Shown here one piece after another: positions 15,232 to 64,000 of a stretch of 64,000 nt of DNA. Each line of letters starts with the position of its first letter. Positions within the stretch are counted from its first letter, which is position 1. The notes under the pieces are model-generated. The model searched no databases. It saw nothing but the letters and a program-made list of their open reading frames with translations, and was not told the DNA's origin. Both the position numbers and the translations under genes were made by a program. The stretch covers positions 30,971,282-31,035,281 of the forward strand of contig OY979718.1 of assembly GCA_963855995.1 (NCBI GenBank). Reading direction: 5' to 3'. Origin of the DNA: Muricea muricata. Lineage: Eukaryota > Cnidaria > Anthozoa > Malacalcyonacea > Plexauridae.

Positions 15232-15233
<2 letters not shown>

Positions 15234-15237
15234 ATCG

Positions 15238-24893: not shown

Positions 24894-24931
24894 AGTGTTG
24901 AGGCGTCCTCAACACTAGCTATAAGCGGAAT

Positions 24932-25013: not shown

Positions 25014-25165
25014 ACCTGTGCTCCAGTCCATACACGGAAAAGTATGGACTATGCATTAATCTCAAATTTCCCGTGCAACGCTTCCGAGCAAGTTGAGGAC
25101 GTTTATTTAAAAATATGCAGAAATTTTAAATAATCAAAATTCTAATGCAATTTATCTAAATCAAC

Positions 25166-32984: not shown

Positions 32985-33067
32985 AACGCATACTCGCTTT
33001 GACTCGCGCGCACTCGCGAGATCGCTACGCGCGAGTAAAGGTACCCTTACTTGCGGCTGGTACTGTA
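32985..33067 (-). repeat. right terminal inverted repeat of the second TIR element
   Basis: Complement of the left terminus at 24932-25013, ending GGTACTGTA. Confidence 0.8.
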
Positions 33068-33930: not shown

Positions 33931-34046
33931 TATCGAGATTGCTTAAGAACTGTTTTGTTTTGGGCCCGCAAACCACAATGATCACAAACGTCCGAAATTG
34001 GCAGAAACAGATTTATCAACATTTAGTGAAAATATCCCTATGAGAG
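33931..34046 (+). repeat. cassette segment D, first copy of the main array
   Basis: D begins after a degenerate acceptor (ACACA) and ends at GAGAAA|GTAAGG. The preceding C segment is absent. Confidence 0.8.
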
Positions 34047-34206
34047 AAAGTAAGGATTTTTTATCAAGAATGTGCGATTTGGATGCTGTGATTACACGGA
34101 AGCCTCTCATCTATGATGAGACAAATGACATAGTTGTTTTCGGATAAATGCTCAAATTTTTTGTGGTATAAAGGTGGAGAATGACACCTAAGGCATGATA
34201 GCACAA

Positions 34207-34608
34207 TCCTATCTGAACATCTGAACATGGACGTAACTTGGGCACTTCTCCGTATGCAGCTAGCCTGCCTAATGCAAAGTGGCGATTTCCCGCATAACAT
34301 GCTGAAATTTTCCGTCTTAGGAGGGTATCAATCTATCTTAAACCTTAATGCAGCTCTACAAGTCTGTAAAATTGGATATTGTCCCATAATCGAAGGTTCC
34401 TGTACCGATTTTACCACTGTGTATACAGTCTTGAAGCATGCACAAATTGTCAGTGATGTTTTGGAATGGCACGATTCTGTAATCACGATTGATGTAGCCT
34501 TCTACATCCAAGAAGAACAAGTTCAAATGAAGTTTCCCGAAGTATTTTCAAACAACGTGGTTTGTCTTGAAGGATTCAACATCGCACAAAACTACTTGTC
34601 TTTGCTGG
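34207..34608 (+). CDS. best-preserved exon B of the cassette (conserved uncharacterised domain)
   Basis: This exon is open for about 134 codons in the frame LSEHLNMDVTWALLRMQLA. It keeps all conserved blocks: VLGGYQSIL, CPIIEGSCTDFTTVYTVL, ITIDVAFYIQEEQVQMKFP and GFNIAQNYLSLLG, ending at a perfect donor (GCTGG|GTAAGAAC). The acceptor is degenerate (GCACAA). The conserved D in ITxDxAxY, the K/E-Q pair and the late His/Asn of GFxIA recur across copies. I know the domain only as an uncharacterised family and do not assign a reaction. Neighbouring C and D segments of the same copy carry stops (for example TGA before the C donor), so expression as a protein is uncertain. A spliced non-coding transcript is equally possible. 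Confidence 0.45.
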
Positions 34609-35019
34609 GTAAGAACTTTCGTTTTTTTGTATCGGCTTTAGGAAATATTTCAGTCAATAGTCTAGTGATGTTTATTACACTATCTGTTTTTAATGATTTT
34701 CAGTAACTTAACCTTTCCAGAACAAAGCAGCCAGGAGTCCAGTTTGTCCTCTGAATGTAGTTCGTCCTTGGATTCCAGTTCCGATGATCAATCGCTACCA
34801 TCAGAGATTTGAGTGAGAATATCGAGAAAAAAATGTGAAGTGCTACAAATGTAGTAAGTAGTAATAAAAGGTTGACGACAGTATTAAGATATTTAATACA
34901 TCACACAGGTCGAGAATGCTTAAGACATGCTTTGTTTGGGCAGCAAATTACAATGATCACACACGTCCAAAATTCGCAGAAGATGATTTGTAAACATTTA
35001 TTGACCTCTATAAGAGAAG
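34207..35019 (+). repeat. cassette copy 2
   Basis: Complete: B 34207-34608, C 34720-34853, D 34909-35019, with a 55-bp spacer between C and D and a clean GAAG|GTAAG donor after D. An insertion follows at about 35041. Confidence 0.9.
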
Positions 35020-35040
35020 GTAAGAATCTATTACTAGAAA

Positions 35041-35984
35041 TACATGCATGCAGCAACCCCTCGCCACTAAGAGCATGCAACTATATTTTCGGAATTACAT
35101 GAAGTACTTGCATAGGTTGTTGTCATAGCAACACGGTAATTGTTATTTTTTCTGTATATTTTTTCAAAATGACAAAATATTGAGTTTTTAATCCTTGTTT
35201 TATTGACAATTTTTTAAAATGGCACAACATTTGTCATCGGTATGTTATTACGCCTAATGTAAGCTTAAATTTGGTATAAAATACGACCTACTAATTACAT
35301 TTATTAGACGTTTTGAAATATTTATGAAACTAAATTTTTATCTACATAAACTTTGAGTTTGAAACAAAACCGTTTCAAGCCAACTTTGTATCTTCGCTCA
35401 TATTCTTTTACATGTAAAGTTCGTCAATATTTTGAAATACAGTAATAAGAAGACAGTCTTGCATTTACAAAACATAAACTTACTCTGGAATTTAAACAAT
35501 AAACAGTGAATAGACTGGAGGAGTACGGCTACGCCGGCCTTTATAAAGCACTAAAACACTAGTATAAATACGCATTATCAACAAACTTGCCTTGTTTTTC
35601 ACGCCGTAGTCAATTCTTGGCATTTCTCTGTATTTTCCCAGAATTAATCTCTCTTCAAGAGTCAATGACCACCCTTCGTTGGTTGTGAAAGTTGCCAAAT
35701 CTTTTTGCAAAAATACAAAATATTGTAGTGCAAAAAGCAAATTTAGATATTTGCTGTCAGTTGAATTCGTGATTAATCAATCAACAATAAATTTTAAATC
35801 TGGCCAATCAGTGTTAGCCATTCATGATAGTCCGCCATATTGTTGAGATCAGTGAGGACATACCACTTTTACTACCTATCACGAGCAACGACTTTCAACT
35901 CCGCTAATACGAAATTAGTAACCCTCGCCCCGGGCTTACGCCCGGAACGGCGCTTCGCGCCGTTGGCTCGGGGATTATGAAAGT
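35041..35984. mobile_element. insertion of about 0.94 kb in the D-B intron, class unknown
   Basis: The cassette intron breaks off near 35041 and resumes with GTGCACTTTAAATGCTGTG at 35985. The insert has no recognised gene; an 82-codon minus-strand ORF at 35492-35740 is unassigned. Its right end is GC-rich and holds two adjacent hairpins, CCGGGCTTACGCCCGG and AACGGCGCTTCGCGCCGTT (about 35931-35966). A terminal hairpin could suggest a Helitron-like or SINE-like end, but no diagnostic terminus is present. Confidence 0.5.
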
Positions 35985-36116
35985 GCACTTTAAATGCTGT
36001 GATGACACATGAGCCTCTCTTCTTTCTTGAGACAAATAACATAGTTCCTTTTGTAAAATCCTCAAATTTTTTGTGGTATAAATGTAAAATATGACACCTA
36101 AAAGATGACAGCACAG

Positions 36117-37577
36117 TTTTCTCTGAAGTTCTGAACATGGAATCAATTTGGGCGCTTTTATGCATGCAGCTACCCTGCTCAATGCAAAGTTGCATTTCCC
36201 CGGACAACATGCAGCAAGTTCCACGCTTAGAGGGATATCAGTTTATCTTGAACCCTGGAGTTCTACCAATCTGCAGAATTGGATATTGCACCATGATCGC
36301 AAGTTGCTATACCGATTTTACCACTGTATTCCGTCTTGAAGCATGCACAAATGGTTAGTGATATTTCGGAACAATAAAATTATGTAATCACGTTTGACGT
36401 GCCCTTCTGCTTCAACCCAAAACAAATTCAAATCAAGTTTCCCAAAGATTTTTCAATCATCATGGTTTGTCTTGGAGGATTCCACATCGCCTTCAACTAC
36501 CTGTCTTTGCTGGGTAAGAAGTTTCGTTATTTTTTATTGGCTTTAAGAATTATTTCGGCCCATGTTTTAGTGATTTTTATTACACCATCTGCTTTCAATT
36601 ATTTTCAAAAACTTAACCTTCCCAGATACAAAGCAGTCGGGAGTCCAGTTTGTCCTTAGAATGCAGTTCATCCTCAGGGTCCAGTTCCTAAGATCATTCA
36701 TTACCATCAGAGATTCGAGTGAGAAGATAAAGATAAAAAAGTGCGTAAAATGTAGTAAGTAGCAATAACAGGTTGACGATATAGTCCGGCAGATAAAAGC
36801 CGATATACTTGCTATATTGAGGGGCAATTCCATTTTGGTTTTATCTTGTTCTTTTTATATTTCTGAATGTTGGCCGCGTTGAAATTCCTTGTGGGCCCTT
36901 GCCAACTAGTTTTTTCCACGATATTACTATAAAACTGTATTACTGTCAAAAAAGGTGATATTCCAAGTTCAATTTTAGAAAAAATAACTTGCATCAACAG
37001 AAAGCTCGTAAAAAACTAAATATAAGACATTTTAGTGGCCACCTTGATTTTTCAAGTGGTTTTAAAGTTATTGATCCTTCAAACTACAAAAAAATGCCAA
37101 AATCGCGCAAAAAACCATAGCACTAGTATAAAAATATGCTTTCAAAGGCTGATAACTTACTTAGAATTGGAAAAATAAGGGTGGCCATTTAAATGTCTTA
37201 TATTTAGTTTTTTACGAGCTTTCTGTTGATGCAAGTTATTTTCTCTAAAATTTTACTTGAAATATCACCTTTTTTGACAGTAATACAGTTTTATAGTAAT
37301 ATCGTAAAAAAACGTGTTGGCAAGGGCCCACAAGAAATTTGAACGCGGCCAACCTTAAAGGAACAAGATAGAACCAAAATGGATTGCCCCTCGATATGGT
37401 AAGTAAAATTGCTTTTTGGTACCCCTATCTGCCGGACTAGTAATATTAATACCTTTCTTACATAAGATAGGTCGAGAATGCTTAAGATTTGCTCCGTTTT
37501 GGCCTCAAATCACAAAGATTTCAAATGTCCAAATTGGCAGAAATAGATTCATCAACATTTAGTGAAAATACCTTTAT
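36117..37577 (+). repeat. cassette copy 3 (with MITE in the C-D spacer)
   Basis: B 36117-36513 has a frame break near 36355; C 36626-36754; spacer split by the MITE at 36782-37439; D 37471-37577 lacks its donor. Confidence 0.85.
36782..37439. mobile_element. foldback MITE (658 bp), ends TAGTCCGGCAGATA
   Basis: The two halves are long inverted repeats of roughly 280 bp (TAGTCCGGCAGATA at the left, TATCTGCCGGACTA at the right), with many substitutions and a short unique centre. It interrupts the GACGATAATATTAAG spacer of copy 3, with TA on both sides. The TA duplication suggests mobilisation by a Tc1/mariner-type transposase. Confidence 0.85.
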
Positions 37578-37913
37578 GACAAAAGCTAAGCATTTTTTAC
37601 TAATAATGTGCAATTTGGATGCGGTAATAACACGGAAGCTTATGCACTAAAGTAACACAAATTAAATAGTTCCTTTCGGAAAAATGCTCAAATTTGTTGT
37701 GTTACAATTTAATAGATCAATTGCTTTTCGGTATGAAATAGATTGTCCGTTAAAAACACACAAAGAATAACGCAATGTTTATGTGGGAGAAATGGGTCAT
37801 GGTGATGAAGTACTCCAATATAAAAGAACTATTACATAGCATTACTTATGTAATCATAGACTCGTATACAGTAACCAGCGGGGTGCATACAGGCCCGCTT
37901 GTAAGCTGAGTGC

Positions 37914-38117
37914 CCTTGGGATTAAGATTCCCATCAGGCAATGTTAAAGGGGTTAAGATCCCCCCTAACATTAACCTGTCCAAGGGGTTAAGATCCCCTT
38001 GGACAGTCCCTAGAATTTGAACAAGGGGTTAAGATCCCCATAAGACAATGTTAGAGGGGTTAAGATCCCCTCTAACATTAACCTGCCCAAGGGGTTAAGA
38101 TCCCCTTGGACAGTTTT
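37914..38117. repeat. nested palindromic repeats (GGGGTTAAGATCCCC)
   Basis: Five strong copies of GGGGTTAAGATCCCC and one degenerate copy are each flanked by inverted arms (AATGTTAGA/TCTAACATT or GTCCAA/TTGGAC). A two-hairpin unit of about 67 bp is repeated with a 108-bp period. Confidence 0.9.
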
Positions 38118-39289
38118 TAGAACTATTTACACATATTGTAGTAACATTAAAGATGTGAGTCTATGGCCTGAACGTGATTATGGGAGCACTTCATCCCCAC
38201 AAATACACAGAATGTGTATTCCCCATAGACGAACAACCAACTCCCACAACAGCTGTAGTCATATAGAAGACAGCTTTTGCCAGGAAATGGTAAGACTTGC
38301 TGTTTAGGCATTACCATTGGTTTTATTACAGCTAGATCATCAGGGTGGCCGGGAAAAACCTGGGCACAGGAAACCTGGATGGGGCCAGATAAATACCAGC
38401 AGCTTCCCCACAAAGCTTCTATATTACAACTTAATGATGAAACCACTGGTAATACGGAAAACAGAGCTGACCATCCTAGCCTTTTTGAAATATTTGTTCA
38501 TCACTATTTAATCAGTTCAGCATGCTTTCAAGATTTTTTTTTTTTCGGCAGGAAGACAAACAGAAATGACCTTCTATCATCATTATTTTTTTCTTTCTTA
38601 TATACAGTATTTGTTCATTCTGTTTTAATCACTTTCACACGATTGCATGTGAGTTGTGTTTTATGGCAAGAATAAAAATAACTTGGCATATTAAGAACAT
38701 TGTTTTGCCCTGGTCTTCATTTTCAATATTTTTGGAAACTTTTGTCGTTAGTTTTACAGATCGACTGCGCCGTTAATCGAAAAAACTGAAGCTTGTACTT
38801 TCCAATTCTGAGCGGCGCGCGCAGACTGACAGCTAGCGACGCTTATGCAACTTAAGCAGGAACCAATTTGAAATAAATAAACTGTGTCAAAATTTAACTC
38901 TAGTAAGATGCCGAATGCCACTAGAAGTAAATTAATTTTTTGAAAGTAAACATTGAAATTTAAGCACAGTTGGAAGAAATAGATTTTCCTTTGTGTAAGC
39001 AGAAATTTTTTCCACTGGTCTTAATAACGGTATAGAATTTCTTGATATGTGTCTAATACAGATCTTGTGCTCAATATTTCTCAAGATATCTCATCTAGGA
39101 AAGCAATCATATTTGTATCGCATGTCTCAACCGCGTTAAAATATATTCAGCTGATTAGATCAGGTAGGATTACACAATAATCTCTCTTGGCAAGCCTTAT
39201 TTATGCTCGTGTTCTACCACAAATAACAAGTTGTGTGCATTTTGATTAGATTTTAAACGAAATATGCAATAAAAATTTTGGAATGCCCG
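38118..39289. other. unassigned part of the composite insertion
   Basis: Plus- and minus-strand ORFs of about 100-130 codons overlap at 38147-38675 but match nothing I know. The rest is AT-rich with no gene seen. Confidence 0.4.
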
Positions 39290-40004
39290 GAATACTTACG
39301 ATACCATATACAGCGCTAGCGCACATCATGATAGATGTAATATCAGATGCGACACTCAACTATGTGCCACAATCCCCTTCCGACGTTGGTGTTGTTGCAA
39401 AATCTGCTGTACCGTACTCGCCAGAGCGCAGGGAAGAAACCGCGTCAACAGCTAGTATACACGCAGGCTTGAAACGATGTTGGAGACACTATACAAGCTC
39501 TTTTACAGGACTGAGACGCGACGCTCGACGTTGGGTTTGAACAAGAATCTGCCGTGTTGACCGCGACCTCGTCTAGAACAGCTGGGCTGCTGCTGTAACA
39601 AACTTGCTGAGGCATCGTGGACATGGCTTTGACAGCGGCACGGGCCGCATTGGTTGCTATAACGGCTACCGATTCTTCCACGCTACGAGAAACAATTGGT
39701 CATATCTTATATGCGCCAAGTGGTCCTTGGAAAATAACGAAGATTGTGGGTTGTCAAGTTAAGGAAATGTCGACGTAGACGGCAAATTTGCGTTCTCTGC
39801 GGCGTCTACCGTTGGCCTCGAAGACGAAGTGACTGCGTGCTGTTGTAGCCGAGAGACTAAAGCATTCTTTTGTCCATGGTTAGGTAGTCCTCTCTCAGTA
39901 CATTGGCGTCGTAAACTCTCCGTATCACTATTGGCCGCCGTTGATCGAGGTCAATCATTGCGGTTAGAAATCCCTTTGGCGTTTTTACGACGAACAGGAG
40001 GCAT
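39290..40004 (-). pseudogene. SAP-domain protein relic, 5' part
   Basis: On the minus strand from the ATG at 40004 the frame reads MPPVRRKNAKGISNRND, then a stop, then a SAP-like motif (SLRRQCTERGLPNHGQKNAL plus VSRLQQHA). A Ser/Thr-rich linker follows, and in a shifted frame an Ala-rich helix (VIATNAARAAVKAMSTM). SAP motifs bind scaffold or other AT-rich DNA. In cnidarians this N-terminal layout, SAP then Ala-rich segment, is common in large repeated gene families near recombinase or transposon ORFs. At least two breaks are seen. The downstream part was not found. Confidence 0.5.
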
Positions 40005-40455
40005 TTCGATGAATAATAATTTGCGTGGAAATTCAAAATTATTGTAGCAGCTCCTATCTCTTGCGAGCTTTTACACAAATTAAAGATATGACTGGCGAGC
40101 ATGCATTGTTATCCTTACAAACGGACGGTTTTTATTGGCCGATCAGATCTCGGTCATATTATTCAGAATTCTCATTGGTTATTTAAGACAAGCTGGCATG
40201 ATGTGCACGTGCCCACAGCATGCATAGACCATGATTATTGAGCTGATGTTAAACAGCGATAACCTTTGATCCATGCGTGAAATATTCAAATCACACCTAA
40301 CAGAAACATGAGAACTTAGCACAGCCAATATGACTGCGTGAACAATATTCGAGGAACTTCCCTGCAATTATTCGCATTGCTCTATTAACTTTAATTTATA
40401 ATTTTGGTATTATAAATTGGCTTTAAAAAATGACACGTTAAAGATGATAACACAG

Positions 40456-41284
40456 TCATCTCTCAAGCTCTAAACACGGATGTAATTTAAGCGCTTCTCA
40501 TGCACCTAACTTTCGTAATGCAAATTAAGTGACATTTCCTTGGACAACATGTAGCAAGTTCCCGGTGGGAAGGACCTGTCTTATACTCTGCCGTTCTACC
40601 ATTGTGCAGAATTGGATAATGCCCTATGATTGAAAGTTCCTGTACCGATTTGACCGCTGTGTATGCAGTCTTAAAGAATCCACAAATGGTTGATGATGTC
40701 TTGGAACTGTATGATGCAGTAAACACGTTTGATATTGCCATCTTCTTCCAAGGAAACCAAATTCAAGTAAAGTTTCCCGAAGAATTTTCAAACACCGCGA
40801 TTCGTCATGGAGAATTACACATCGCACTGAACTACCTGTCTTTGCCGGGTAAGAAGTTATTTCTTATCTATCAGCTTTAAGAAATATTTCAGTCAATGGT
40901 TTAATGATATTTATTACATTATCTGTTTTCAATGATTTTCAGGAACTTAATCTTTCCAGACACAAACAAGTGAGGAGTCCTCGCTGTCCAGTTTCGAAGA
41001 TCATTCGTCACCATTAGAGACTTGAGCGAAAATATACAGAAAAAAATTGAGCAGTGCTTCAAATAAAGTAAGTAGTAATAACAGGTTGACAATAATATTA
41101 AGACTTTTCATACATCACACAGGTCGAGGTAGGAGTTTATTATTAAGAATGGGCACGCTAGATGCTGTGATGACACGGAAGCCCCTGTTCTTTGGTCAGA
41201 CAAATAACATAGTTATTTTCTGCAACATCCTAAAGTTTTTGTGGTATAAATGTAGAATATGACACCTAAATGATGACAGCAAAG
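40456..41284 (+). repeat. cassette copy 4 (segment D deleted)
   Basis: B 40456-40848, C 40960-41067. After the acceptor CACACAG the D segment is reduced to GTCGAG and joins intron sequence at once, a deletion shared with copies 6 and 21. Confidence 0.88.
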
Positions 41285-41600
41285 TCCTCTCTGAATATCT
41301 GAAAATAGATTTAATTTGGGCGCTTCTTCGCATGCAGTTAGGCTGCCTAATGCAAAGTGGAATCCCTCGGGCAACATGTGGAAAACTTTGGCTTAGGAGG
41401 ATATCAATCTATCTTAAACCCTGTAGTTCTACCAATCTGCAAAAGTGGATATTGTCGCATGATCGCAGGTTCCTGTACCGATTTTACCACGTGCACTGGG
41501 TATACAGTCTTGAAGAATGCCCAAATGGTTAGTGATGTTTTGGAACAGCTCGATGCTGTAATCACGTTTGATATAACCTTCTGCTTCAACGCAAAACAAA

Positions 41601-41888
41601 TAGACAAATTTGGCTAACGTTTGTTTATACCCAATTCACATTTTAAGATCACTCACATGCCTAGTTACTATTATATTAGCTTGCGGCAGCGCAATGGAGA
41701 ACAAAAGTAACTACGCATTTAGAAGTATGGACATGAGTGAATAACTCGTGTTCATCATTCGTATGCATGGTTACTTTTGTTCTAGTGTACTCTTACGCAA
41801 ACGAGAACAATGGTATCCAACCATGTCAATAATCCAAAGTTGGGAATTGGGTGGCAACGGCAAAAACATTGTTAGCCAAATTTGTCTA
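41601..41888. mobile_element. MITE (288 bp) with 18-bp perfect TIRs
   Basis: Ends TAGACAAATTTGGCTAAC and its exact complement. TA lies at both edges. The paralogous copy 22 (near 57840) lacks the insert, giving an empty-site reference. Confidence 0.9.
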
Positions 41889-42377
41889 TTGAATTGAAGT
41901 TTCCCGAATAATTTTGAAACACCGTGGTTAGTCTTCGAGGATTCCACATCGCCTTGAACTACCTGCCTTTGGTGGGTAAGAAGTTTTTTTTTTTGTATGT
42001 GTTGGCTTTAGGAAATATTTTGGTCTATGGTTTAATGATATTTTTTACATTATATGTTTTTAATGATTTTCAATAACTTACCTTCGCAGACACAAAGCAG
42101 TTTGGGGTCCAATTTTTCTTTGGAATACAGTTCGTCCTCGGATTCCAGTTATGAAGATCATTCGTTACCATCAGAGATTCGAGTGAGAATATACAGAAAA
42201 AAATTGTGAAGTGTCACAAATGTAGTAAGTAGTAATATCAGGTTAACGATAATATTAAGACCTTTCATACATCAAGCAGGTCGAGAATGCTTAAAACGTG
42301 CCTTGTTTGGGCTGCAAATCACAATGATCACAAGCGTTCGAAGTTGCCAGAAACAGATTCATAAATATTTATTTATA

Positions 42378-42798
42378 TATATTTATAAATATTTATATCA
42401 TTTAGCCTGTATTTGGATAAAGGCCGAGGTTATCGGTAATTAACTGACTTATTACACAATTGACAAGGTTCGAACAATGAACAAAGGAAAATTCAGTCTT
42501 TGTGTCTCTGTTAGATATTAGTGTAGAAGAGCAAAGCGTTTTAAGTAAGAATACTTCCGAATGTTATCACAAGGTCATAACATGAAAGTTGAAACGCGAA
42601 AAAAAAGAAAAGAAATTTAAGAAAATGGTCTACTGAGTTTATAAGTCAATATCTGTATATTGTTCTGGAGTTGGAAGACAATATCCATATATTGTTGTGT
42701 AAGTTTTGTATACAGTCGTACAAATAAAAATTGCATGCAATTATGCTAAATAAAGGTCTATGAACAACAAAAGAAACCACGTCAATCGTGTAATAAGT
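42378..42798. mobile_element. MITE-like insertion in cassette segment D
   Basis: Host sequence CAGATTCATAAATATTTA is interrupted and resumes with GTGAAAATACTCC. Inside, ACTTATTACACAATTGAC (42447-42464) is mirrored at 42781-42798 with one mismatch. The 70 bp left of that TIR is AT-rich and unexplained. Confidence 0.75.
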
Positions 42799-42975
42799 GA
42801 AAATACTCCTATAAGAGAAGGTAAGAATTTGTTATTAAGAATGTGCACTTTACATCCTGTAATGAAACGGAAGCCTATTCTCTAAGGTGACGCAAAGGAA
42901 ATAGTTGCTTTCGGCAAAATGCTCAAATTTGTTGTCATAAACTTAAAAAATGACTCGTAAAAGATGATAGCACAG

Positions 42976-44491
42976 TCATCTCTGAAGCTCTAAATATGGA
43001 TGTATTTGGGCGCTTCTTCTCATGCACCTACCCTTCCTAATGCAAAGTGGCATTTCCTCGGACAGCATGGAGCAAGTTCCCGCCGGGGAGGATATCAATC
43101 TATCTTATGCCCTGCCGTTCTACCATTGTGCAAAATTGGATATTGTCCGATGATTGAAGGTTCCTGTACCGATTTGACCACTGTGTATGCAGTCTTAAAA
43201 CATCCACAAATGGTTGATGATGTTTTGGAACTGTATTTAAGGGTTAGAGACTGTTAAGTTCGTGTTTTGTTTACGAATACACGCAGTACAATGAACGAAA
43301 AATTTTGTATACTGCACGAGGCCGCCGGGCCGAGTGTAGTTTACAAAATTTTGAGCTCATTGTACATTCAGCAAGCGCGTGTATTTGTAAACAAAACACG
43401 AACTTAACAGTCTCTACCACATTTGATATATGATCTGAGTTCACTGGTCGTGCTCGCAAGCAAAAGCCGTATGCTTTCGTTACCAAAACAAAGTAAAACA
43501 AATCCGATTTTAAAAACATTATACGTGAAAAAAGTACAACAAATTTGAAGCGAACAACCTTTAAAAGCTGAGTCAAGCAAATAAACACAACGATACGTCA
43601 AAAAATAGCCTGTTATATGAGCTTTCATGCGAGAGTTCACAGACGAAAAAATGAGAATAATCGGTGTTTACTAAGTTTAATTACCTCTGACGATAGAAAT
43701 TCTCAAGATTGTTTTCCTTTTTGGTCTTTATAGTAGAATTCATCGATACTTTCATCAACTTGTTAGCTTTATCCACTTGTAAATGCAGTTTTTTTGACGT
43801 TGTACTCCTACCCACTTTTAATACTGCACACTTTTCGTGCATTATTGTTATAACGTACTCAAACGACTCGTTGTTGCCAGGTAAACAAAACACACGTGAT
43901 CGATTTTGACCAATCGCGTGCGCGGATTTTGAACAGTGAACGAAGATCATATATTAAGGTGCAGTAAACGCGTTTGATATTGCCATCTTCTTCCAAGGAA
44001 AGCAAACTCAAGTACAGTTTCCCGAAGAATTTTCAAACACCGTGATTCGTCATGGAGAAATACACATTGCACTGAACTACCTGTCTTTGCTGGGTAAGAA
44101 GTTATTAAGAAATATTTCAGTCTATGACTTAATGATATTTATTACATTATCTGTTTTCAATGATTTTTAGGAACTTAATCTTTCCAGATACGAAGCAGTG
44201 AGGAGTCCTCGGTGTCCAGTTTCGAAGATCACTTGTCACCATTAGAGATTCGAGCGAGAAGATACTGAAAAAAATTGAGCAGTGCTTCAAATGAAGTAAG
44301 TATTAATGACAGGTTGACGATAATAATAAGACTTTTCATACATCACACAGGTCGAGATAAGGCTGTGATGCTGTGATGACACGGAAGCCTCTCTTCTATG
44401 GTGAGACGAATGACACAGTTGTTTTCGAAAAAATGCTCAAATTTTTTGTGGTATAAATGTAGAAAATGACACCTAAAAGATGACAGCACAG
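42976..44491 (+). repeat. cassette copy 6 (with TTAA-flanked insertion, D deleted)
   Basis: B 42976-44093 interrupted by the insertion at 43237-43957; C 44188-44295; D reduced to GTCGAG as in copies 4 and 21. Confidence 0.86.
43237..43957. mobile_element. TTAA-flanked insertion with long hairpin
   Basis: TTAA occurs at both edges (43237-43240 and 43954-43957). The left part is a foldback: AGAGACTGTTAAGTTCGTG at 43246 pairs with its complement ending at 43415, with arms of about 39 bp and further imperfect pairing inward. The right half (43416-43953) is unrelated, with an 89-codon minus-strand ORF of unknown nature. TTAA targets are typical of piggyBac and Kolobok groups, but the two outer ends are not mirror images. 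Confidence 0.65.
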
Positions 44492-45384
44492 TCCTCTCTC
44501 AGCTCTGAACATGGATTTAATTTGGGCACTTATTTTCATGCACCTAACCTTCCTAAAGCAAAGTGGCATTTCCCCGGAAAATATGGAGCTATCAATCTAT
44601 CTTATACCCTGCCGTTCTACCATTGTACAAAATTGGATATTGTCTTAGGATCGAAGGTCCTAGTACCGACTTGACCCCTGTGTATACAGTCTTGAAGCAT
44701 GCACAAATGGTTAGTGATCTTTTGGAACAGCACGATGCAGAAATGACGTTTGATCTTGCCATCTTCATCCACGCAAAACAAACAAAATGAAGTTTCACGA
44801 AGATTTTTCAAACACCGTAGTTTGTTATGAAGAATAACACATCGCAACGAGTAACCTGTCTTTGCTCGGTAAGAAGATTCGTTTTTATCTATCGCCTTTA
44901 GAAAATATTTCAGAACTTTCCAGATACAAAGTAGTCAGGAGTCTAACTTTTCCTCGGAGTCCAGCGCATCCACGGTGTCCAGTTTCGAAGATCATTCGTC
45001 ACCATTAGAGATTCGAGTGAGAAGATACAGAAAAAAATTGATCAGTGCTTCAAATGAAGTAAGTAGTAATAGCAGGCTGATGAGAATATTAAGACTTTTT
45101 TTAAACCAACCAGGTCGAGAATGCTTTAAAGGTGCTTTGTTTTGGCTGCAAAAAACAATTATCAAAAGCGTCCAAAATTGGCAGAAGATGATTTATCAAC
45201 ATTTAGTGCAAATACCTCTAAAAGAGAAGGTAAGAATTTATTATTAAGAATGTGCACTATAGATGCCGTGACGACACAAAGGCCCCTCTTCTACGTTAGA
45301 CAAATAAAATAGTTGCTTTCTTCAAAATGCTAAATTGTTTAAGGTATAGATGTAAAATATGACACTTAAAATATGACAGTAATG
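44492..45384 (+). repeat. cassette copy 7
   Basis: B 44492-44868 (with a loss around GGGAGGATATC), C 44924-45058, D 45114-45229. The frame through C, spacer and D is open in this copy (RVRRYRKKLISASNEVSS ... GRECFKGALFWLQ). Confidence 0.88.
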
Positions 45385-52560: not shown

Positions 52561-53346
52561 TCCTATCTGAAGATCTGAACATGGACGTAACTTGGGCGCT
52601 TCTCCCCATGAAGCTAGCATGCCTAATACAAAGTGGCATATCCACGGAAAACATGCAGAAAGTTTCCGGCTTTGGAAGAAATCAATCTATTTTAAACCGT
52701 GCAGTTCTAAGAGTTTGTAAATTTGGATATTGTCCAATTTTATCATTAAGTTTCATTAAGTATTGTCAAGACAGTAAGTCTTGAAGGATTTCATATCGTA
52801 CTGAACTACCTGCCTTTGCTGGGCAAGAAGCTTTGTTTTTTTTGTATCGGCTTCAGTAAACATTTCAGTCTATAGTCTAGTGATATTTATTACCCTATTT
52901 GTTTTTATGATTTTCAGTAACTTAAGGTTTTCAGATGCAAAGCAGCAAGGAGCCAGTTTGACCTCGGAAGGCTGTTCGTCCTCGGATTCCAGTTCCGATG
53001 ATCACTCGTTACCATGGGAGATTGGAGTGAGAAGATACACAGAAAAATTGCGAAGTGCTTCAAACGTAGTAAGTGGTAATAACCAGTTGAGTATAATATT
53101 AATACCTCTCATGCATCGCAAAGGTCAAGAATGCTTAAGACGTGCTTTGATTAGGCCCGCAAATCACAATGATAACAAACGTCCGAAATTGGCAGAAATA
53201 GATTCCTCAACATATATTGAAAATACCCCTATATATTACTAACAATGTGCACTTTGGATGCTGTGATGAGACGAAAGCCTCTCTTCTATGGCAAGAGATA
53301 TTTTTGTATAAATTTACTAAATGACACGTAAAAGATGACAGCCACG
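52561..53346 (+). repeat. cassette copy 16 (B internally deleted)
   Basis: B 52561-52822 carries the same type of central deletion as copies 13 and 25. C 52935-53068, D about 53124-53235 without donor. Confidence 0.86.
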
Positions 53347-54306
53347 TCCTCACTGAAGCACTGAACATAGATGTAATTTGTGCACCTCTTCGCATGCAGC
53401 TAGCCAGTGTAATGCAAAGTGGGATTTCCCCAGACAACATGCAGAAAGTTTTCGGCTTAGGAGTATATCAATCTACCTTAAACCCTGCTGTTCTACAAAT
53501 CTGCAAAGTTGGATATCGTCCCATGATCGAAGGTTCCTGTACCGATTTTACCGCTGTGTATTCAGTCTTAAAGCTTGCACAAATGATGTTTTGGTTTAGT
53601 GATGTTTTGGAAAAGTATGATGTTGTAATCACGTTTGATATTGCCATCTTTTTGTAAGAAAAACAAATTCAAATGAATTTTCTCCAAGAATTTAATTCAA
53701 CACCATGATTCGTCATGGAGGGTTATACATCGCCCTGGAATACCTTTCTTTCCTGGGTAAGAAGTTTCGTTTTTATCCATCCCATCGGATTTAGGAAATA
53801 TTTCGATTGATGTTTTAATGATATTTATTAAACTATCTGTTTTTAATGATTTTCCGTAACTTAATCCAATTTTTCCTCGGAATCCAGTTTGTCCTCGGAG
53901 TCCAATTCCGAAGATCATCCTATACCCATCAGAGACACGTGTGAGACGATACAGAAAAAAATTTTAAAGAGCTTCAAATGTAGTAAGTAGTAATAACAGG
54001 TTGACGATAATTTTGAGACCTTTCGTACATTATATAGGTAGAGAATGCTTAAGATGTACTTTGTTTGGGCTGCAAGTCACAATGACTACAAACGTTCGAA
54101 ATTGACAGAAAAAGATTCAATATTTAGTCAAAATACACCTATAAGAGAAGGTAGGAATTTGTTATTAAGAATGTGTACTTTAAATGCTGTGATGACACGA
54201 AAGCCTCTCTTCTATGGTTAGGCAATTAACATAGTTTTTTTTGGAAAAATGCTGAAATTTTTTGTGCAATAAATGTAAAAAAGACACCTAAAACATGACA
54301 GCACAG
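53347..54306 (+). repeat. cassette copy 17
   Basis: B 53347-53756 has a short in-frame-looking duplication (GATGTTTTGGTTTAGTGATG). C about 53866-53982 lost its acceptor region. D 54038-54150. Confidence 0.86.
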
Positions 54307-55107
54307 CTCTCTTTGAAACTCTGTACATGGATTTAATTTGGGCGCGTCCTTGCATGCAGCTACCCTTCCTAATGCAAAGTGCTATTTCCCCGGACAATAT
54401 CCAGCAAGTAATCACGTTTGGTATAGCCATCTTTATGCTAGGAAAAAAATTCAAATGAAGTTTTCCGAAGAATTTTTAAACACCGTGGTTTGTCTATGAG
54501 CATTCCACATCGCACTGAACTACCAGTCGTTGCTGGGTAAGAAGTTTCGTTTTTTATCGCTTTTAAGACATATTTCAGTCTATGCTCTAGTGATATATGT
54601 TACACTATGTGTTTTTAATTATTTCCAGTAACCTAACCTTTCCAGATACAAAGAAATCAGGTGTCCAGTTTCTCCTCGGAATCCAAGGTGTCCTCGGGGT
54701 CCAGCTGCGAGGATCATTCGTCACCATCAGTGATTCGAGTGAGAAGATACAGAAAAAAATTGAGAAGCGCTTCAACTGAGGTAAGTAGTAATTAGAGGTT
54801 GATGATAATATTAAGACTTTTCATACACCACACAGGTCGAGAATGCTTAAGACGTGCCTTGTTTGGGCTGCAAATCAGAATCATCACAAACATCCGAAAT
54901 TGGCGGAGGCAGATTTATGAACATTTAGTTAAAATATCTCTAAAAGAAAAGGTAAGAATTTATTATTATGAATGTGCGCTTTAGATGCTGCGATTACGTG
55001 AAAGCCTCTCTTCTATGGTCAGACATATGACACAGTTTTTTTCGGCAAAATGCTTAAATTTTTGTCGTATAAATGTAGAAAATGACATGTACAAGATAAC
55101 AGCACAG
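54307..55107 (+). repeat. cassette copy 18 (B internally deleted)
   Basis: B 54307-54536 lacks the central third (CAGCAA joins GTAATCACG). C 54646-54780, D 54836-54951 with an open frame to AAAG|GTAAG. Confidence 0.86.
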
Positions 55108-56098
55108 TCCTCTCTGAAGCTTTGAGCGTGGATTTAATTCAGGTACTTATTTGGATGCAGCTACCCTGCCTAACTAAAGTGGAATTTCCCCGGACAGCAT
55201 TGTGCAAGCGTCCAGCCAGGGCGGATATCAATCTCATAAACTCTGCATTTCTACCATTGTGCATAATTGGATATTCTCCTATGATTGAAGGTTCTTGTCC
55301 GCTGCACCGATTTGACCACTATATATATACAGTCTTAAAGCATTCACATATGGTTAGTGACGTTTTGGAACAACACTATTTAGTAGTCACGTCTGATGCT
55401 GCGATCTTCATCCTAGCCAAAACAAACTCAAATCAAGTTTCACGAAGATTTTTCAAGCACCGTGCTTTGTTTTGGAGGATAACGCATCACAGTGAGCTAC
55501 CTGTCTTTGCTGGGTAAGAAGTTTCATTTTTATCCATTAGCTTTAGGAAATATTTCAGTATATGGCTTAATGATATTTGTTAAATTATCTTTTTTCAATG
55601 ATTTTCAGTAACTTAAACATTCCAGATACAAAGCAGTCAGGACTCCAGCTTGTCTTTGAAATCCAGCGTGTCCTCAGTGTCCAGTTTCGAATATCGTTCT
55701 TAACCATTGGAGATTCGAGTGAGAAGATATAGAAAAAAATTGAGCAATGCTTCAATTGAAGTAAGTAGTAATTTTATAACAGGTTGACCATAATGTTAAG
55801 ACTTTTCATACATCACACAGGTGGAGAATCCTTAAAAGGTGTTTTGTTTGGGCTGCATTTAACAATGATCACGTGCACAAACGTCCAAAATTGGCAGAGG
55901 AAGAGTTATCAACATTTAGTGAAAATACCTCTATAAGACAAGGTAAGAGTTTATTATTAAGAATGAGCACTTTAGATGCTGTGATGACGCGACAGCCTCT
56001 CTTCTATGGTTAGACAAATAACATAGTTGTTTTCGGAAAAATCCTAAATGTTTTGTGGTATAAATGTAGAATATGACATCTAAAAGATGAGAGCAAAG
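55108..56098 (+). repeat. cassette copy 19
   Basis: B 55108-55513 reads open for 131 codons, but with two compensating shifts relative to the consensus. C 55626-55760, D 55821-55942. Confidence 0.86.
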
Positions 56099-56719
56099 TC
56101 GTCTCTGAAGCTGCGAACATGGATTTAATTTGAGCGCCTCTTCGCATGCACCTACCCTGTTTAATGAAATGTGGCATTTTCCAGGACAACATGGTGCAAG
56201 TTCCCGGCCTGGGAGGATATCAATCCATCTTAAAGCCTGCTGTTCTACCATTGTGAAAAATTTGTTATCGTTCAATGATCGAAGTTTTCCTGTGAATGCA
56301 GTTCTTCATCGGACTCCAGTTATGAAGATCATTCGTTACAAGCAGAGATTCGAGTGAGAATATACAGAAAAATTTGTGAAGTGCTTCAAATGTAGTAAGC
56401 AGCAATAACAGCTTGACGATAATATTAAGACCTTTCATACTTCAGACAGGTCGAGAATGCTTAAGATCTTCTCTGTTTGGGCCCCAAATCACAATGATCA
56501 CAAATATTCAAATTGGCAGAAGCAGATTCATCAACATTTAGTGAAAATACCCCTATACGAGAATGTAAGAATTTGATACTAATAATGTGCAGTTTGGATG
56601 CTGTAATGACACGGAAGCCTATGCCCTAAGGAGGCACAAATGAAATAGTTGCTTTCGGCATAATGCTCAAATTTTTTGTTCTAAATTTAAAAAATGACAC
56701 TTAAAAGATGATAGCACAG
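56099..56719 (+). repeat. cassette copy 20 (B fused to C)
   Basis: The second half of B, the B-C intron and the start of C are deleted. B 56099-56290 joins C at about 56293-56394. D 56450-56564. Confidence 0.85.
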
Positions 56720-57525
56720 TCGTCTCTGAAGCTCTAAACATGGATGTAATTTGGGCGCTTCTTATGCACCTAACCTTTATAATGCAAAGTGGCACTTCCT
56801 CGGACAACATGGAGCAAGTTCAGGCCGGGGAGGATATCAATCTATAGCCTGCCGTTCTACCATGGTGCAAAATTTGATATTGTCTTATGATTGAAGATTC
56901 CTGTACCGATTTGAGCACTGTGTATGCAGTCTTAAAGCATCCACAAATGCTTAGTGATGTTTTGGAACTGTATGATGCAGTGAACACATATTGCCATCAT
57001 CTTCCAAGGAAACCAAATTCAAGTAAAGTTTCCCGATGAACTTTCAAACACCGTGATTCGTTATGGAGAATTACACATCGTACTGAGCTACCTGTCTTTG
57101 CTGTGTAAGAAGTTCGTTTTTATCCATCAGCTTTAAGAAATATTTCAGTCTATGGTTTAATGATATTTATGACATTACCTGTCTTCAATGATTTTCAAGA
57201 ACTTAATCTTTCCTGATACAAAGCAGTAAGGAGTCCTCGGTGTCCAGTGTCGAAGATCATTCGTCACCATTAGGGATTCGAGCGAGAAGTACAGAAAAAA
57301 ATTGAGCAGTGCTTCAAATGAAGTATCTAGCAATAACAGGTTGACGTTAATATTAATACTTTTTATACATCACACAGGTCGAGGTAAGAATTTATTATTA
57401 AGAATGAGCACGTTAGGTGCTGTGATGACACGAAAGCCTCTCTACTTTTGTCAGACAAATAACATAGTTATTTTGTGCAAAATCTTAAATTTTTTGTGGT
57501 ATAAATGTAGAATATGACACCTAAA
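56720..57525 (+). repeat. cassette copy 21 (D deleted; pairs with copy 4)
   Basis: B 56720-57104, C about 57215-57322, D reduced to GTCGAG. It matches copies 4 and 6 in the shape of this deletion. Confidence 0.87.
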
Positions 57526-58505
57526 ATTCCTATCTTGATTTCTGGAAATAGATTCAAATTGGGGCTTCTTTGCATGCAGCTAGCCTGCTTAATGCAAAGT
57601 GGCATTTCCCCGGACAACATGCGGAAAACTTTGCCTTAGGAGGATATCAATCTATCTTAAACTCTGTAGTTCTACCAATCTGCAAAAGTGGATATTGTCC
57701 CATGATCGTAGGTTCATGTACCGATTTTACCACGTGCACTGTGTATACAGTCTTGAAGAATGCACAAATAGTTAGTGATATTTTGGAAATGCTGGACGCT
57801 GTAATCACGTTTGATGTAGCCTTCTGCTTCAACGCACAACAAATTTAAATGAAGTTTCCCGAAAAATTTGGAAACACCGTGGTAAGTCTTCGAGGAATCC
57901 ACATCGCCTTGAACTACATGCCTTTTGTGGGTAAGAAGTTTCTTTTTTATGTGTTGGCTTTAGGAAATACTTTGGTCTATGGTTTAATGATATTTTTTAT
58001 ATTATCTGTTTTTAATGATTTTCAATAACTTAACCTTCGAAGTTACAAAGCAGTTTGGAGTACAGTTCTTCCTCGGAATGCAGTTCGTCCTCGGATTCCA
58101 GTTATGAAGATCATTCGTTACCACCAGAGATTCGAGTGAGAAGATACAGAAAAAAATTGTGAAGGGCTACAAATATAGTAAGTAGTAATATCAGGTAAAC
58201 GATAATATTAACACCTTTCATACATCACACAGGTCGAGAATGCTTAAAACGTGCTTTGTTTTGGCTTCAAATCACAATGATCACAAACGCTCAAAATTGG
58301 CAGAAAGGGATTCACCAGCATTTGGTTAAAACACCCCTATAAGAGAAGGTAAGAATTTATTACTAATAATAAGCTTTCTGAATTCTGAGATGACACGAAA
58401 GCCTCTTTTCTATATTGCGACAAATGACATATTGTTTTCGTGAAATTGCTGTTATTTTTTTGTTGAATAAAGAAAGAGAATTATACCTAAAAGATGACAG
58501 CAGAG
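57526..58505 (+). repeat. cassette copy 22 (pairs with copy 5, lacks its MITE)
   Basis: B about 57526-57930 shares the ACCACGTGCACTG insertion with copy 5 but has an uninterrupted ACAACAAATTTAAATGAAG where copy 5 carries the MITE. C 58043-58177, D 58233-58348. Confidence 0.87.
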
Positions 58506-58707
58506 TTGTCTCTGAAGCTCTGAACATGGATTTAATAAAGGCACTTCTTTGCATGCAACTACCCTGGCTAATGTGAACTGTTCTTTTCCCGGACAACATG
58601 CAGTAAGTTCCCGGCCGGGCAAGATGTCGACCCATCTTAAACCCTGAAGTTCCACAAATCTGCAAAATTGGATATTGTCCTATGATCGAAGGTTACTGTA
58701 CCGATTA
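58506..58707 (+). repeat. cassette copy 23 (first half of B only)
   Basis: B starts at 58506 and stops at TACTGTACCGATTA, joining directly to D-B intron sequence (TTAAGAATGAGC). C and D are missing. Confidence 0.86.
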
Positions 58708-58849
58708 TTAAGAATGAGCATTTTAGATGCCATGATGACACGGATGTCTCTCTTCTATGGTTAGACAAATAACATTATTGTTTTCTGCAAAATCCTAAAT
58801 GTTTTGTGGTATAAGTGTAAGATATGACACCTAATAGATGGCAGAAAAG

Positions 58850-59819
58850 TCTTTTCTGATGCTCTGAACATGGACTTAATTTGGGCGATTCTTCGCATGC
58901 AGCTAGTCTGCCTAATGCAAAGTGGCATTTCCCCGAACAACATGGTGCAAGTTTCCGGTTTGGGAGGATATGAATCTATCTTAAACCCTGCTGTTCTACC
59001 ACTGTGAAAAATTAGTTATTGTCCTATGATCAAAGGTTCCTGTACCTCCGTGTAAACAGTCTTGAAGCATGCAAAAATTGTTAGTGACGTTTTGAACAGC
59101 ACCATGCAGAAATCGCGTCTGATGCAGACATCATCATCCCAACCAAAACAAACTCAAATGAAGTTTCACGAAGAATTTTCAAACACCGTGGTTTGTCTAG
59201 AAGGATTAGACATCGGAGTGAACTACCTGTTTCTGCTGGGTAAGAAGTTTCGTTTATATGTATCGCATTTAGGAAATATTTCTGTTCATGGTCTAGTTAT
59301 ATTTATTACACTAACGGTTTTGCATGATTTTCTTATCTTATAGTAACTTAACCTTAGCAGATACAAAGCAGTCAGGAGTCCAGTTTTTCCTCGCAATCCA
59401 GGGCGTCCTCAGGGTCCAGTTCAAAAGATCATTCATCACCATCAGAGATTTGAGTGAGAGTATACAGAAAAATTGTGAAGTGCGTCAAATGTAGGAAGTA
59501 GCAATAACATGTTGACGATAAGATTGAGACCTTTCATACATCAGACAAGTCGAGAATGCTTAAAATAATCTTTGTTTGGGCCCCAAATCACAATGATCAC
59601 AAATATATGCATATTGGATGGAGATTTATAAACTTTTCGTGAGAATACCTCTATAAGAGAAGGTAAGAATTTATTACTATGAATGTGAGCTTTAGATTCT
59701 GTGATGATTGTGTAGCCTCTCTTCTATGGTGAGTCAAATAACATAGTTGTTTTCGGCGAAATGCTCAAATTTTTTGTGGTATAAATGTAGAGAATGACAC
59801 CTAAAGCATGATAGCACAG
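58850..59819 (+). repeat. cassette copy 24 (pairs with copy 12)
   Basis: B 58850-59239, C 59361-59493 with donor changed to GGAAG, D 59549-59662. Confidence 0.87.
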
Positions 59820-60466
59820 TCCTATCTGAAGATTTGAACATGGACGTAACTTGGGCACTTCCCCACTGAAGCTATATAGCCTGCCTAATACAAAGTGGAA
59901 TTTCTCTGGAACACATGCAGGAAGTTTCTGGCTTAGGAAGGAATCAATCCATCTTAAACCTTGCAGTTCTAAAAGTCTGTAAAATTGGATATGGTACAAT
60001 TTTATCATTAAGTTTTCCGAATTATTTTCAAACAATGTGGCTTGTCTTGAAGGATTCCACATGGCACTGAATTACCTGTCTTCGTGGGGTAGGAAGCTTT
60101 GTTTTTTGTATTGGCTTTGATAAATATTTCAGTCAATAGTCAAGTGATATTTATTACACTATCTGTTTTTAATGATTTTCAGTAACTTAACCATTGCAGA
60201 TACAAATCTGTTTAGAGTCATATTTATCCTCGGAATGCAGCGCGTTCTCGGTGTCCAGTTTCAAAGATCATTCGTCACCATCAGAGATTCGGGACAGAAG
60301 TTACAGAAAAAAATTGAGACGGACTTCAATTGAAGTAGAAATAACAGGTTGACGAAAATATTAAGACTTTTCATATATCAAACAGGTCGAGAATGCTTAA
60401 AAGTGCTTTGTTTGAGCTGCAAATCACATAGAAATAGAAAATTACTACTAGAAAATGAGAGCACAG
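59820..60466 (+). repeat. cassette copy 25 (pairs with copy 13)
   Basis: B 59820-60088 with the central deletion of copy 13, C 60200-60334, D from 60386 cut short near 60430. Confidence 0.86.
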
Positions 60467-61208
60467 TCCGCTCTGAAGATCTGAACATATATGTTACTTG
60501 GGCTTTTCCGCGCATGCAGCAAGCCTGGCTAATGCAAATTGTCATTTCAACGGACAACATGCAGATAGTTTCCGGCTTAGGGGTATATCAATCCATCTTA
60601 AACCCTGCAACTCTGAAAATCTCCAAAATTGGATATTGTACCATGTTGGAAGTTCCCTGTACCGAATTTTCGGCTGTGTATAAAGTCTTGAAGCTGGCGC
60701 AATGGTTAGTGATGTTTTAGAACAGTATGATGTTGTAATCACGTTTGATATTGTCATCTTCTTTCAAGGAAAAAAAATCAAATGAAGTTTCCCCAAGAAT
60801 TTTTAAATACCTTGATTCGTCATGGAGGATGACACATCACCCTGAAATACGTTTCTTTGCTGGGCAAGAAGTTTCGTTTTTATCTATCAGCTTTAGGAAA
60901 TATTTCAGTGTATGATTTAATGATGTTTATTACATTAATTGTTTTTAATGATTTTCAGTCACTTAATCTTTCCAGATAGAAAGCAGTCAAGCGTCCAATT
61001 TGTTTTCGGATTGCGGTTCGTCCTCGGTTTCCAGTCCCCAAGAACATTCGGTTCCTATCAGAGATTCGAGTGAGAAGATACCGAAAAAAATTGTGCCTCA
61101 AATGACGTAAGTAGTAATAACAGGTTGACGATAATATTAAGACCTTTCATACATCTTACAAGTCAAGAATGCTTAAGACATGCTTTGTTTGGGCTGAAAA
61201 TCACAATA
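60467..61208 (+). repeat. cassette copy 26 (pairs with copy 14)
   Basis: B 60467-60863 with the same CGCGCATGCAGCAAGCCTGG change and GGGCAAG donor as copy 14. C 60976-61106. D from 61172 is cut near 61208. Confidence 0.87.
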
Positions 61209-61919
61209 ATAACGTTTGATGTAGCTTTCTGCTTCCAAGCAAAGCAAATTCAAATTTAAGTGATCCAAAGGATTTTAAAACACCGTGGTTTGTCTTGGAG
61301 GATTCCACATCGCACTGAACTAGCTACCTGTTATTCTGGGCAAGAAGTTTTTGTTTTATGTATTGGCTTTAGGAAATATTTCTGTCCATGATTTAACGAT
61401 ATTTATTACTGTCTGTTTATCTTTTTTTTAACGATTTTCAGAGACTTAACATTTCCAAATACATAGCGGTCAGGAGTCAAGTTCGTCTTCGGATTCATCG
61501 CTTCATCGGTGTCCAGTTTCAAAGATCATTCGTCACCATCAGAGATTCGAGTGAGAGGATACAAAAAGATATTCAGAAGTACTTCAACTGAAAGAGGTAG
61601 TAATAGCAGGTTGACGATAATCTTAAAACTTTCATAAATCACACAGGTCAAGGATGTTTAAGACATGCTTTGTTCGGGCTGCAAATCACAATCATCACAA
61701 AAATACGAAATTAGGAGAAGCAGATTTATAAACATTTAATGAAAATACCTCTAAAAGAAAACGTAAGAATTTATTATTATGAATGTCCGCTTTAGATGCT
61801 GTGATTACGCGGAAGGGTCTCTTCTATGGTTAGACAAATGACACAGTATCTTTCGGCAAAGTGCTTAAATTTTTTGTCGTATAAGTGTAGAAAATGACAC
61901 CTAAAAAATAACAGCACAG
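61209..61919 (+). repeat. cassette copy 27 (second half of B only)
   Basis: D of copy 26 joins the middle of a B exon (AACGTTTGATGTAGC), which runs to about 61338. C about 61459-61597, D 61647-61762. Confidence 0.85.
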
Positions 61920-62865
61920 TCTTCCGTGAAGCTATAAACATGGATTTAATTTAGGTGCTTATTTGCATGCAGCTTCCCTGCCTAACTAAAGTGGCATCTC
62001 CCCGGACAACATTGTGCAAGTGTCCGGCCTGGGAGGATGTCAATCTATCTTAAACCCTGCTGTTCCACTATTCTGAAAAAATTGTTATTGTCTAATGATC
62101 GAAGGTTCCTGTACCGATTTGACCACTTTGTATACAGTTTTGAAGCATGCACAAATGGTTAGTGATGTTGCGGACCAACAAGATTATGTAATCACGTTTT
62201 ATGTGGCATTCTATTTCAACCCAAAACAAATTCAAATGAAGTTTCCCAAAGAATATACTTCCACTCCGTGGTTTGTCTTGAAGGATTGTACATCACAGAG
62301 AGCTGCCTGTCTTTGCTGGGTAAGAAGTTTCGTTTTTATGTTTCGGACTTAGGAAATATTTCTGCTCATGGTCAAGTGATTTTAATGATTTTCAGTTACC
62401 AAACCTTTCCGGACACAAAGAAGTCAGGAGTCCAGTTTTTCTCTCGGAATCCAGGGCGTTTTCGGTGTTCAGCTCTGAAGACCATTCTTCAGCATCAGAG
62501 ATTCGAATAAGAAGATACAGAAAAAAATTGAGAAGTTCTTGAGAAGTAATAAAAGGTTGACCATAATAATAAGACCTTTTATGCGTCACACAGGTCGAGA
62601 ATGCTTAAGACGTGCTTTGTTTGGGCTGCAAATCACAAAGATCGCAAACAGTCGAAATTGGCTGAAACAGATTCATCAACATTTAGTGAAAATACCCCTA
62701 TAAAAGAAGGTAAGAATTTATTACAAATAATGTGCACTTTAGATGCTGTGATGACACGATAGCCTCGTTTCTATGATTAGACAAATGACATACGTTTCTT
62801 CGGCAAAATGCTCCAATTTTTATCGGTTTGAATATAGAAAATGACACCTAAAAATGACAGCACAG
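61920..62865 (+). repeat. cassette copy 28 (pairs with copy 9)
   Basis: B 61920-62319, C about 62413-62541 truncated as in copy 9, D 62594-62709. Confidence 0.88.
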
Positions 62866-63774
62866 TTCTCGCTGAAGCTCTGAACACGGATTTAATTTGG
62901 TTGCTCCTTTGCATGCAGCTACCCTGTCATTAGCACAGTGGCATTTCTCCGCCCAACATGCCACAAGTTCCCGGCCGGGGAAGGTATCTGTCTATCTTAA
63001 AAACTGCTGTTCTACAATTGTGCAAAATTGAATATTGTCTAAAGATCGAAGATTCTTGTACCAATTCCACCACTGTGTGTACAGTGTAGAAGCATGCACA
63101 AATGGTTAGTGATGATTTGAGACAGTATGATGCAGTCATCACGTTTGACATCTCCATCTTAATCCAAGGAAAACAAATTCAAATGAAATTTCCCAAAGAA
63201 TTTTAAAACCCCGTGATTCGTCATGGAGGAGTACACATAGCACTGAACTACAGTACCTGTCTTTGCTAGGTAACAAGTTTGGTTTTACATTTCGGCTTTA
63301 GGAAATATTTCAGTCTATGGTTTTATAATATTTATTACATTATCAGTTTTTAATATTTTTCAGGAATTTAAACTTTCATTATACAAAGCAGTCAGGAGTC
63401 CAGCTTCTCCACCGAATGCAGCTCGTCCACGGAAACAAGTTCCCAAGATCATTCGTTACCATCAGAAACTCGAGTGAGAAGATACAGAAAAAAATTTCAA
63501 GTGCTTCAAATGTAGTAAGTAGTAATGACAGGTTGACAAACACATTAAGACCTTTCAAAAATTATAAAGGTAAAGAATGCTTCAGACATGCTTTGTTTCG
63601 GCTGCAAAGCACAATGATAAAAAACATCCGAAATTGGCAGAAGCGGATTTATAAACATTTAGTTAAAACACCTCTAAAGGAGAATGTAAGAATTTATTAT
63701 TATGAATGTGCATTTTGGATGATGTGATGAAACGGAAGCCTCTCTTCTATGGTGAGACAATTGACACAGTTGTT
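62866..63774 (+). repeat. cassette copy 29 (pairs with copy 10)
   Basis: B 62866-63269, C about 63381-63514, D 63570-63685 with the TAAAGGTAAAGAATGC acceptor change seen in copy 10. Confidence 0.88.
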
Positions 63775-64000
63775 TTAGGCACTTATTTGCATGCACCTAC
63801 CCTTCCTAAAGCAAAGTGGTATTTCCCAGGAAAACGTGGAGCAAGTTCTCGCCGTTGAGTATATCAATCTATTTTATACCCTGCCGTTCTAGCATTGTGC
63901 AAAATTAGATATTGTCCTAGGATCGAAGGTCTCTCTACCGATTTGACCCCTGTGCGTACAGTCTTGAAGCATGCACAAATGTTAGTGATCTTCTGGAACA
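63775..64000 (+). repeat. cassette copy 30 (runs off the window; pairs with copy 11)
   Basis: It starts with the same intron deletion as copy 11 (TTGTTTTAGGCACTTATT) and continues as exon B to the window end, so the array extends further. Confidence 0.86.

Follow-up and report, generated by a model that had tools for sequence, protein, structure and literature searches.

Satellites assembled from pieces of other sequences have precedents. The relevant passages of two reviews describe satellites that arose from segments of open reading frames (ORFs) and from the central parts of DNA transposons, and name unequal crossing-over as a route of expansion (PMC9659126, PMC12628747). In the Su(Ste) repeats of Drosophila melanogaster, as set out in part of one account, a frame-broken part of a gene is joined to transposon sequence in tandem repeats (PMC7874207). 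Here we analyze a window of 64,000 nucleotides from the anthozoan Muricea muricata (C3:30971282-31035281 in a 453-Mb assembly of 74 contigs), almost half of which is occupied by a tandem array of ~974-bp units. We conclude, with a probability of roughly 0.87, that this array is a chimeric satellite derived from both a gene and a transposon, and that it is most likely non-coding. It resembles the transposon-derived satellites in those review passages in having a monomer with a piece of a transposon ORF, in tandem and diverged (PMC9659126, PMC12628747), but its monomer, ~1 kb long and matched on one contig, also includes host sequence that resembles an exon and a small piece of another repeat. 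Compared with Su(Ste), the Muricea transposon part is an ORF fragment, whereas the Su(Ste) part is described as an insertion in the promoter (PMC7874207). The likeness is one of sequence build, from which transcription, PIWI-interacting RNAs (piRNAs) and a target gene of the Su(Ste) kind could only be conjectured for Muricea. Among the papers listed by literature searches on exon-bearing, intron-bearing or gene-derived satellites, none was like this mosaic, which does not prove its absence from print; we regard the mosaic as new and its kind, a satellite with transposon or gene parts, as known.

An initial annotation of the window had described about 29 direct copies of a cassette of three exon-like segments, B, C and D, with splice-like borders and mostly broken coding frames. 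The copies were confirmed by a profile search of the window, with a profile made from 11 complete units and then rebuilt from its own 48 hits: 29 units lie head to tail, all on the plus strand, the last cut by the window end at 64000. Unit matches cover 24,328 of the 30,100 bases from 33901 to 64000, and whole-unit matches reach E = 0, which excludes chance. The array thus has the long head-to-tail arrangement of a single monomer that is expected of a satellite, and it continues for ~33 kb beyond the window on C3. Its main parts, as exemplified by the first units, are:

33901..64000, plus strand: tandem array of 29 units of ~974 bp, running beyond the window to about C3:31068008
33901..34876, plus strand: unit 1, which fills 971 of the 973 model columns, more than any other copy, and whose B region is free of stops
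34188..34622, plus strand: 'exon B' of unit 1 (unit 286-716, approximate ends), matching the 1237-amino-acid ORF of a transposon
34623..34670, plus strand: unit ~717-765 of unit 1 (approximate ends), interspersed-repeat tail forming the first half of the 'B-C intron'
34671..35041, plus strand: 'C' and 'D' of units 1-2 (unit ~763-973 and 1-169 of the next), putative remnant of a coding exon and of the acceptor before it, a CCAG ending at 34720

The source of B is a DNA transposon. Unit positions 286-716 (431 bp) are 86.1-86.8% identical to five places on contigs C1 and C2 (L017-L021), which are copies of one element and 97.7-99.8% identical to one another over the pieces they share; part of the monomer is thus homologous to a resident transposon. 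The element is 7419 bp long in L018, its ends are inverted repeats starting GTCAGGGAGCAGA, and a TA stands next to each end in the three copies for which both ends are covered. L018 contains an uninterrupted ORF of 1237 codons that spans B, as well as a second frame of 288 amino acids. To judge from its sequence, this 7.4-kb family was probably active recently. The 1237-amino-acid ORF has no Pfam match above the cut-offs, and the superfamily is therefore left unnamed. The B of unit 1, the B consensus and one C-D frame were likewise without Pfam matches above the cut-offs, the best hit in a PDB sequence search had an E-value of 0.067, and viral and prokaryote genome contigs, searched with six peptide patterns each, yielded no close relative of B. 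A protein search brought up many further relatives of B, their identity ranging from 80% down to 25%, and in several of them the open frames are long. The B protein may resemble uncharacterised cnidarian proteins. Between consensus B and L018 the nonsynonymous divergence (dN) is 0.107 and the synonymous divergence (dS) 0.324, giving a dN/dS of 0.33; the path between the two, which includes the transposon's own branch, was constrained.

C and D come from elsewhere. The remainder of the unit matches a locus on C7 (L024, in the region of 13.827-13.831 Mb) and another at 18.97 Mb on C3 (L025), with partial matches at L022 and L023, two of four matched places on C1 that are near-identical and so not independent. 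A single open frame of 118 amino acids in L024 takes in C, D and the first part of the 'D-B intron' and ends at a stop (125 amino acids if counted from the preceding stop). This frame starts 653 bp past the end of a 738-codon ORF, and L025 shares the end of that ORF as well as the C-D frame. Eight GT sites in the last 400 bases of the 738-codon ORF look like donors, six of them in phase 0, and the acceptor before the 118-amino-acid frame is also in phase 0, so this frame is probably the last exon of the host gene to which the long ORF belongs; since the donor-like sites sit in a short repeated motif, we infer this rather than assert it. The frames on C7 have no Pfam match above the cut-offs, and codon-usage scoring left the frames of C and D undecided. 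Within 10 kb of the 738-codon ORF there are two more open frames that are related to the beginning of the 738-amino-acid protein.

A third and smaller contribution, unit 725-773 (about 50 bp), matches a stretch of L024 within an interspersed repeat, which was found at at least 15 other places among the 40 of 2408 candidates that were scored. At the three joints, the sequences CT, TTCG and TATTT-TTAC are common to the unit and both sources. The unit is a mosaic of at least three sources with microhomology at its joints. This qualifies the suggestion that the array is a satellite born from one gene: the gene derivation stands, but the single origin does not.

These matches suggest how the array may have formed. 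A founder segment would have joined a copy of the apparent last exon and 3' flank of the host gene, whose best-preserved relative is on C7, to an interior slice of 431 bp from the ORF of the terminal-inverted-repeat transposon and to about 50 bp of the interspersed repeat, the pieces meeting at short microhomologies. In L024, ~350 bp separate the end of the exon-side match from the repeat tail beyond it; most simply, the transposon slice would have taken the place of this interval. The resulting ~974-bp segment would then have been amplified head to tail, and is now at three places within 2 Mb of C3; copies diverged, blocks of units were duplicated by unequal exchange or replication slippage, and other DNA inserted near the array start. 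On this account the exon-like borders would be codons of two source frames plus one inherited acceptor.

The source sequences bear directly on these borders, which had been taken as an intact intron-exon layout. The GCACAG noted before B corresponds to GGTACAG in L018, codons of ...D-D-G-T-V-L..., and the CTGG followed by GTAAGAAG after B encodes L-L-G-K-K-F, after which the frame runs on. Both borders are interior codons of an ORF without an intron there, and B therefore ends where it was cut, not at the end of an exon; two of the five kept borders are thus proven codons. Nor are C and D separate exons, as they form one continuous frame in L024 with the supposed donors inside it. The C acceptor is CCAG in all four homologues, while the C donor is GT in three of four (GTAAG in one), and the D donor is GT in one of the two homologues that cover it (L025, GTGTT) and GTAAG in neither. 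In the parent sequences, then, the C acceptor alone is kept as a splice site, and it alone among the five borders is plausibly a true one by its sequence.

Divergence within the array shows the turnover of blocks between units that is expected of satellite DNA. Units are 10-16% off the consensus with a mean pairwise divergence of 21.9%, and adjacent units are no more alike than distant ones. Against this background blocks have been duplicated, at 4-9% divergence. Units 8-10 differ from units 27-29 by 4-6%, and the second such pair appears below with its coordinates:

45085..48849, plus strand: units 7-10, within which 45654-48441 is 90.7% identical to 61208-64000
48854..51303, plus strand: units 11-13, closest to units 23-25 (58705-61129), at 7-9% divergence per unit

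Further similar units are 4 and 21 (9.7%), 6 with both 10 and 29 (10-12%), and 3, 5 and 20 (mutually 11-13%). Column identity, averaged over all 29 units, is 0.855 in B, 0.864 in C, 0.881 in D, and 0.869 and 0.878 in the introns, with 0.929 in the 22-column link between C and D. CpG sites diverge more (0.215 vs 0.133 overall), a pattern as in methylated DNA.

The copies of B diverge without detected protein constraint. As the initial annotation had stated, most frames are broken: the B columns are free of gaps in 4 of 30 units (a stray copy outside the array counted), and one of these four is free of stops. Substitutions were counted in 21 of the 29 units, eight duplicates having been dropped. 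In B, observed-to-expected ratios are 1.04 for synonymous, 1.05 for nonsynonymous and 0.84 for stop changes, the ratio of nonsynonymous to synonymous is 1.01, and codon positions are alike (p = 0.53). Purifying selection between repeats was not seen, with a nonsynonymous ratio of 1.01 both in B and in the C-D frame of D, and a shortage of stops in D is the exception.

Several observations weigh against a non-coding satellite of this origin, and some of them favor a decayed multi-domain gene, whose units would once have been repeated exons of one long translated protein. The founder segment was not found. On the transposon side, L021, covered on one side, has TT instead of TA on its left, and the four copies other than L018 have shorter open frames around B, of 1151, 746, 344 and 193 codons (the last in a partial match). 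The C-D frame of L025 is interrupted by stops. Within the array, border dinucleotides are kept in most alignable units (19 of 23 before B, 22 of 26 after B, 19 of 25 before C, 21 of 24 after C and 21 of 23 after D), or 102 of 121 (84%) when pooled, vs 75% for all GT and AG of the unit. Consensus D-B-C, joined at the proposed sites, is open as far as a TAG, and B and C measure 399 and 135 nt between borders, both multiples of three. Codon positions differ in C (p = 0.019) in the direction that fits a frame spliced from B, C being a low-complexity stretch, which qualifies the difference. In the C-D frame across D there are 5 new stops vs 23.4 expected (ratio 0.21), a deficit matched by 0.18% of 1670 overlapping 45-codon windows on both strands; it lies at unit columns 10-147 on the plus strand (e.g. 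33910-34047) and could trace translation, though in a frame other than the one that splices to B. Finally, the ratio in the +2 frame of exon D is 0.78, which is within noise, as 14% of windows are as low.

We give the decayed gene hardly any credence. The idea that borders are better conserved than the rest of the unit holds slightly, the excess of 84% over 75% being mild (~2.4 standard deviations) for motifs that had been chosen by eye; as short windows, the D and B donors fall within the top 6% of the unit for conservation, the B acceptor and C donor are unremarkable, and the C acceptor falls below the average. Of the 14 units in which all five dinucleotides can be aligned, 5 have every one intact. 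With a nonsynonymous ratio of 1.01 in the C-D frame at D and a stop in the consensus frame itself, constraint on D is hard to believe, and its stop deficit stays unexplained. Selected repeated exons should show codon-position bias and a nonsynonymous shortage, and B has neither; together with the interior codons at the borders of B and the single C-D frame of L024, this argues against a gene. Another reading, a regulatory array that is transcribed and might, like the Su(Ste) repeats to which it is comparable in build, supply piRNAs against the parent transposon, would by analogy suit a transposon that looks recent (copies 97.7-99.8% alike) and an array with many same-strand pieces of its ORF, where exact 20-mers shared with the element start at 80 positions and 28-mers at 16. 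Within the unit, however, these pieces run in the sense direction, and their sequence has drifted away from that of the transposon; no constraint was detected in B, so we rate this reading as improbable, with a slim chance of being right. The location of the arrays raises one more candidate, a chromosome-specific centromeric or pericentromeric satellite. In a DNA search with one unit, whose extents are lower bounds, runs of units were matched on C3 only, at three places within 2 Mb, 29.113-29.216 Mb (minus strand), 30.639-30.664 Mb and 31.005-31.068 Mb, the last including the array of the window; this region, 29.11-31.07 Mb, is near the midpoint of the 60.66-Mb contig. Since the arrays are short and diverged, that of the window is interrupted, and none was matched on other contigs, a centromeric role seems very unlikely. 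The array is most likely a decaying satellite without a role as a protein or gene.

The ends of the 30.639-30.664 and 31.005-31.068 Mb arrays form a segmental duplication, with C3:30.661-30.665 (L041) and 31.064-31.068 Mb (L039), ~403 kb apart, being 95-97% identical and sharing the same array end. In the window, six unit-free stretches of 266-2690 bp interrupt the array, all in its first 10 kb. One of these stretches and a copy upstream of the array are listed here:

36778..37440, no strand: stretch inside the array that lacks unit sequence and carries long inverted repeats (248 bp, 88%), like a foldback element or a miniature inverted-repeat transposable element
24455..24912, plus strand: stray copy of part of the unit (model 86-540), lying apart from the array

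Other features of the window lie before the array. Positions 24933-33066 likely hold an 8.1-kb DNA transposon with matching terminal inverted repeats starting ACAGTACC. On its plus strand it has matches to DUF6589 at 28352-28666 (E 5.7e-6) and 29553-29864 (E 0.004) and to DUF4218 at 30291-31529 (E 0.0018), all of them below the Pfam cut-offs; a literature search for a link between DUF6589 and a transposon found no paper. Long open frames with reverse transcriptase matches at 181-2379 (minus), 15133-18201 (plus) and 19759-21285 (minus), one of them also with an endonuclease domain, are probably non-long-terminal-repeat retrotransposons. A run of TAT triplets occupies 12994-13925 (932 bp, 310.7 copies, 99% matches), adjoined by a minisatellite at 12852-12996, and the minisatellite's ATAACACC-type units occur again at 23988-24382.

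A more speculative possibility, to which we attach a low probability, is that the chimeric, chromosome-specific satellite is transcribed into a long RNA that contributes to transposon silencing, or marks the centromeric region of one chromosome. It draws on the presence of many same-strand copies of an ORF piece of a recently active transposon beside what would be a working 3' splice acceptor; if it were true, reading of the array RNA would have left its trace in the paucity of stops in the C-D frame. On the satellite reading that we favor, the array is a clear example of a monomer whose main parts still have recognizable sources in its own genome, namely an exon-like frame on C7, a transposon with near-identical copies and an interspersed repeat, with microhomology where they join. 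The array also carries a warning for the annotation of such loci: where a tandem array looks like a gene, its recurring GT and AG motifs can belong to codons of a source ORF rather than to splice sites.

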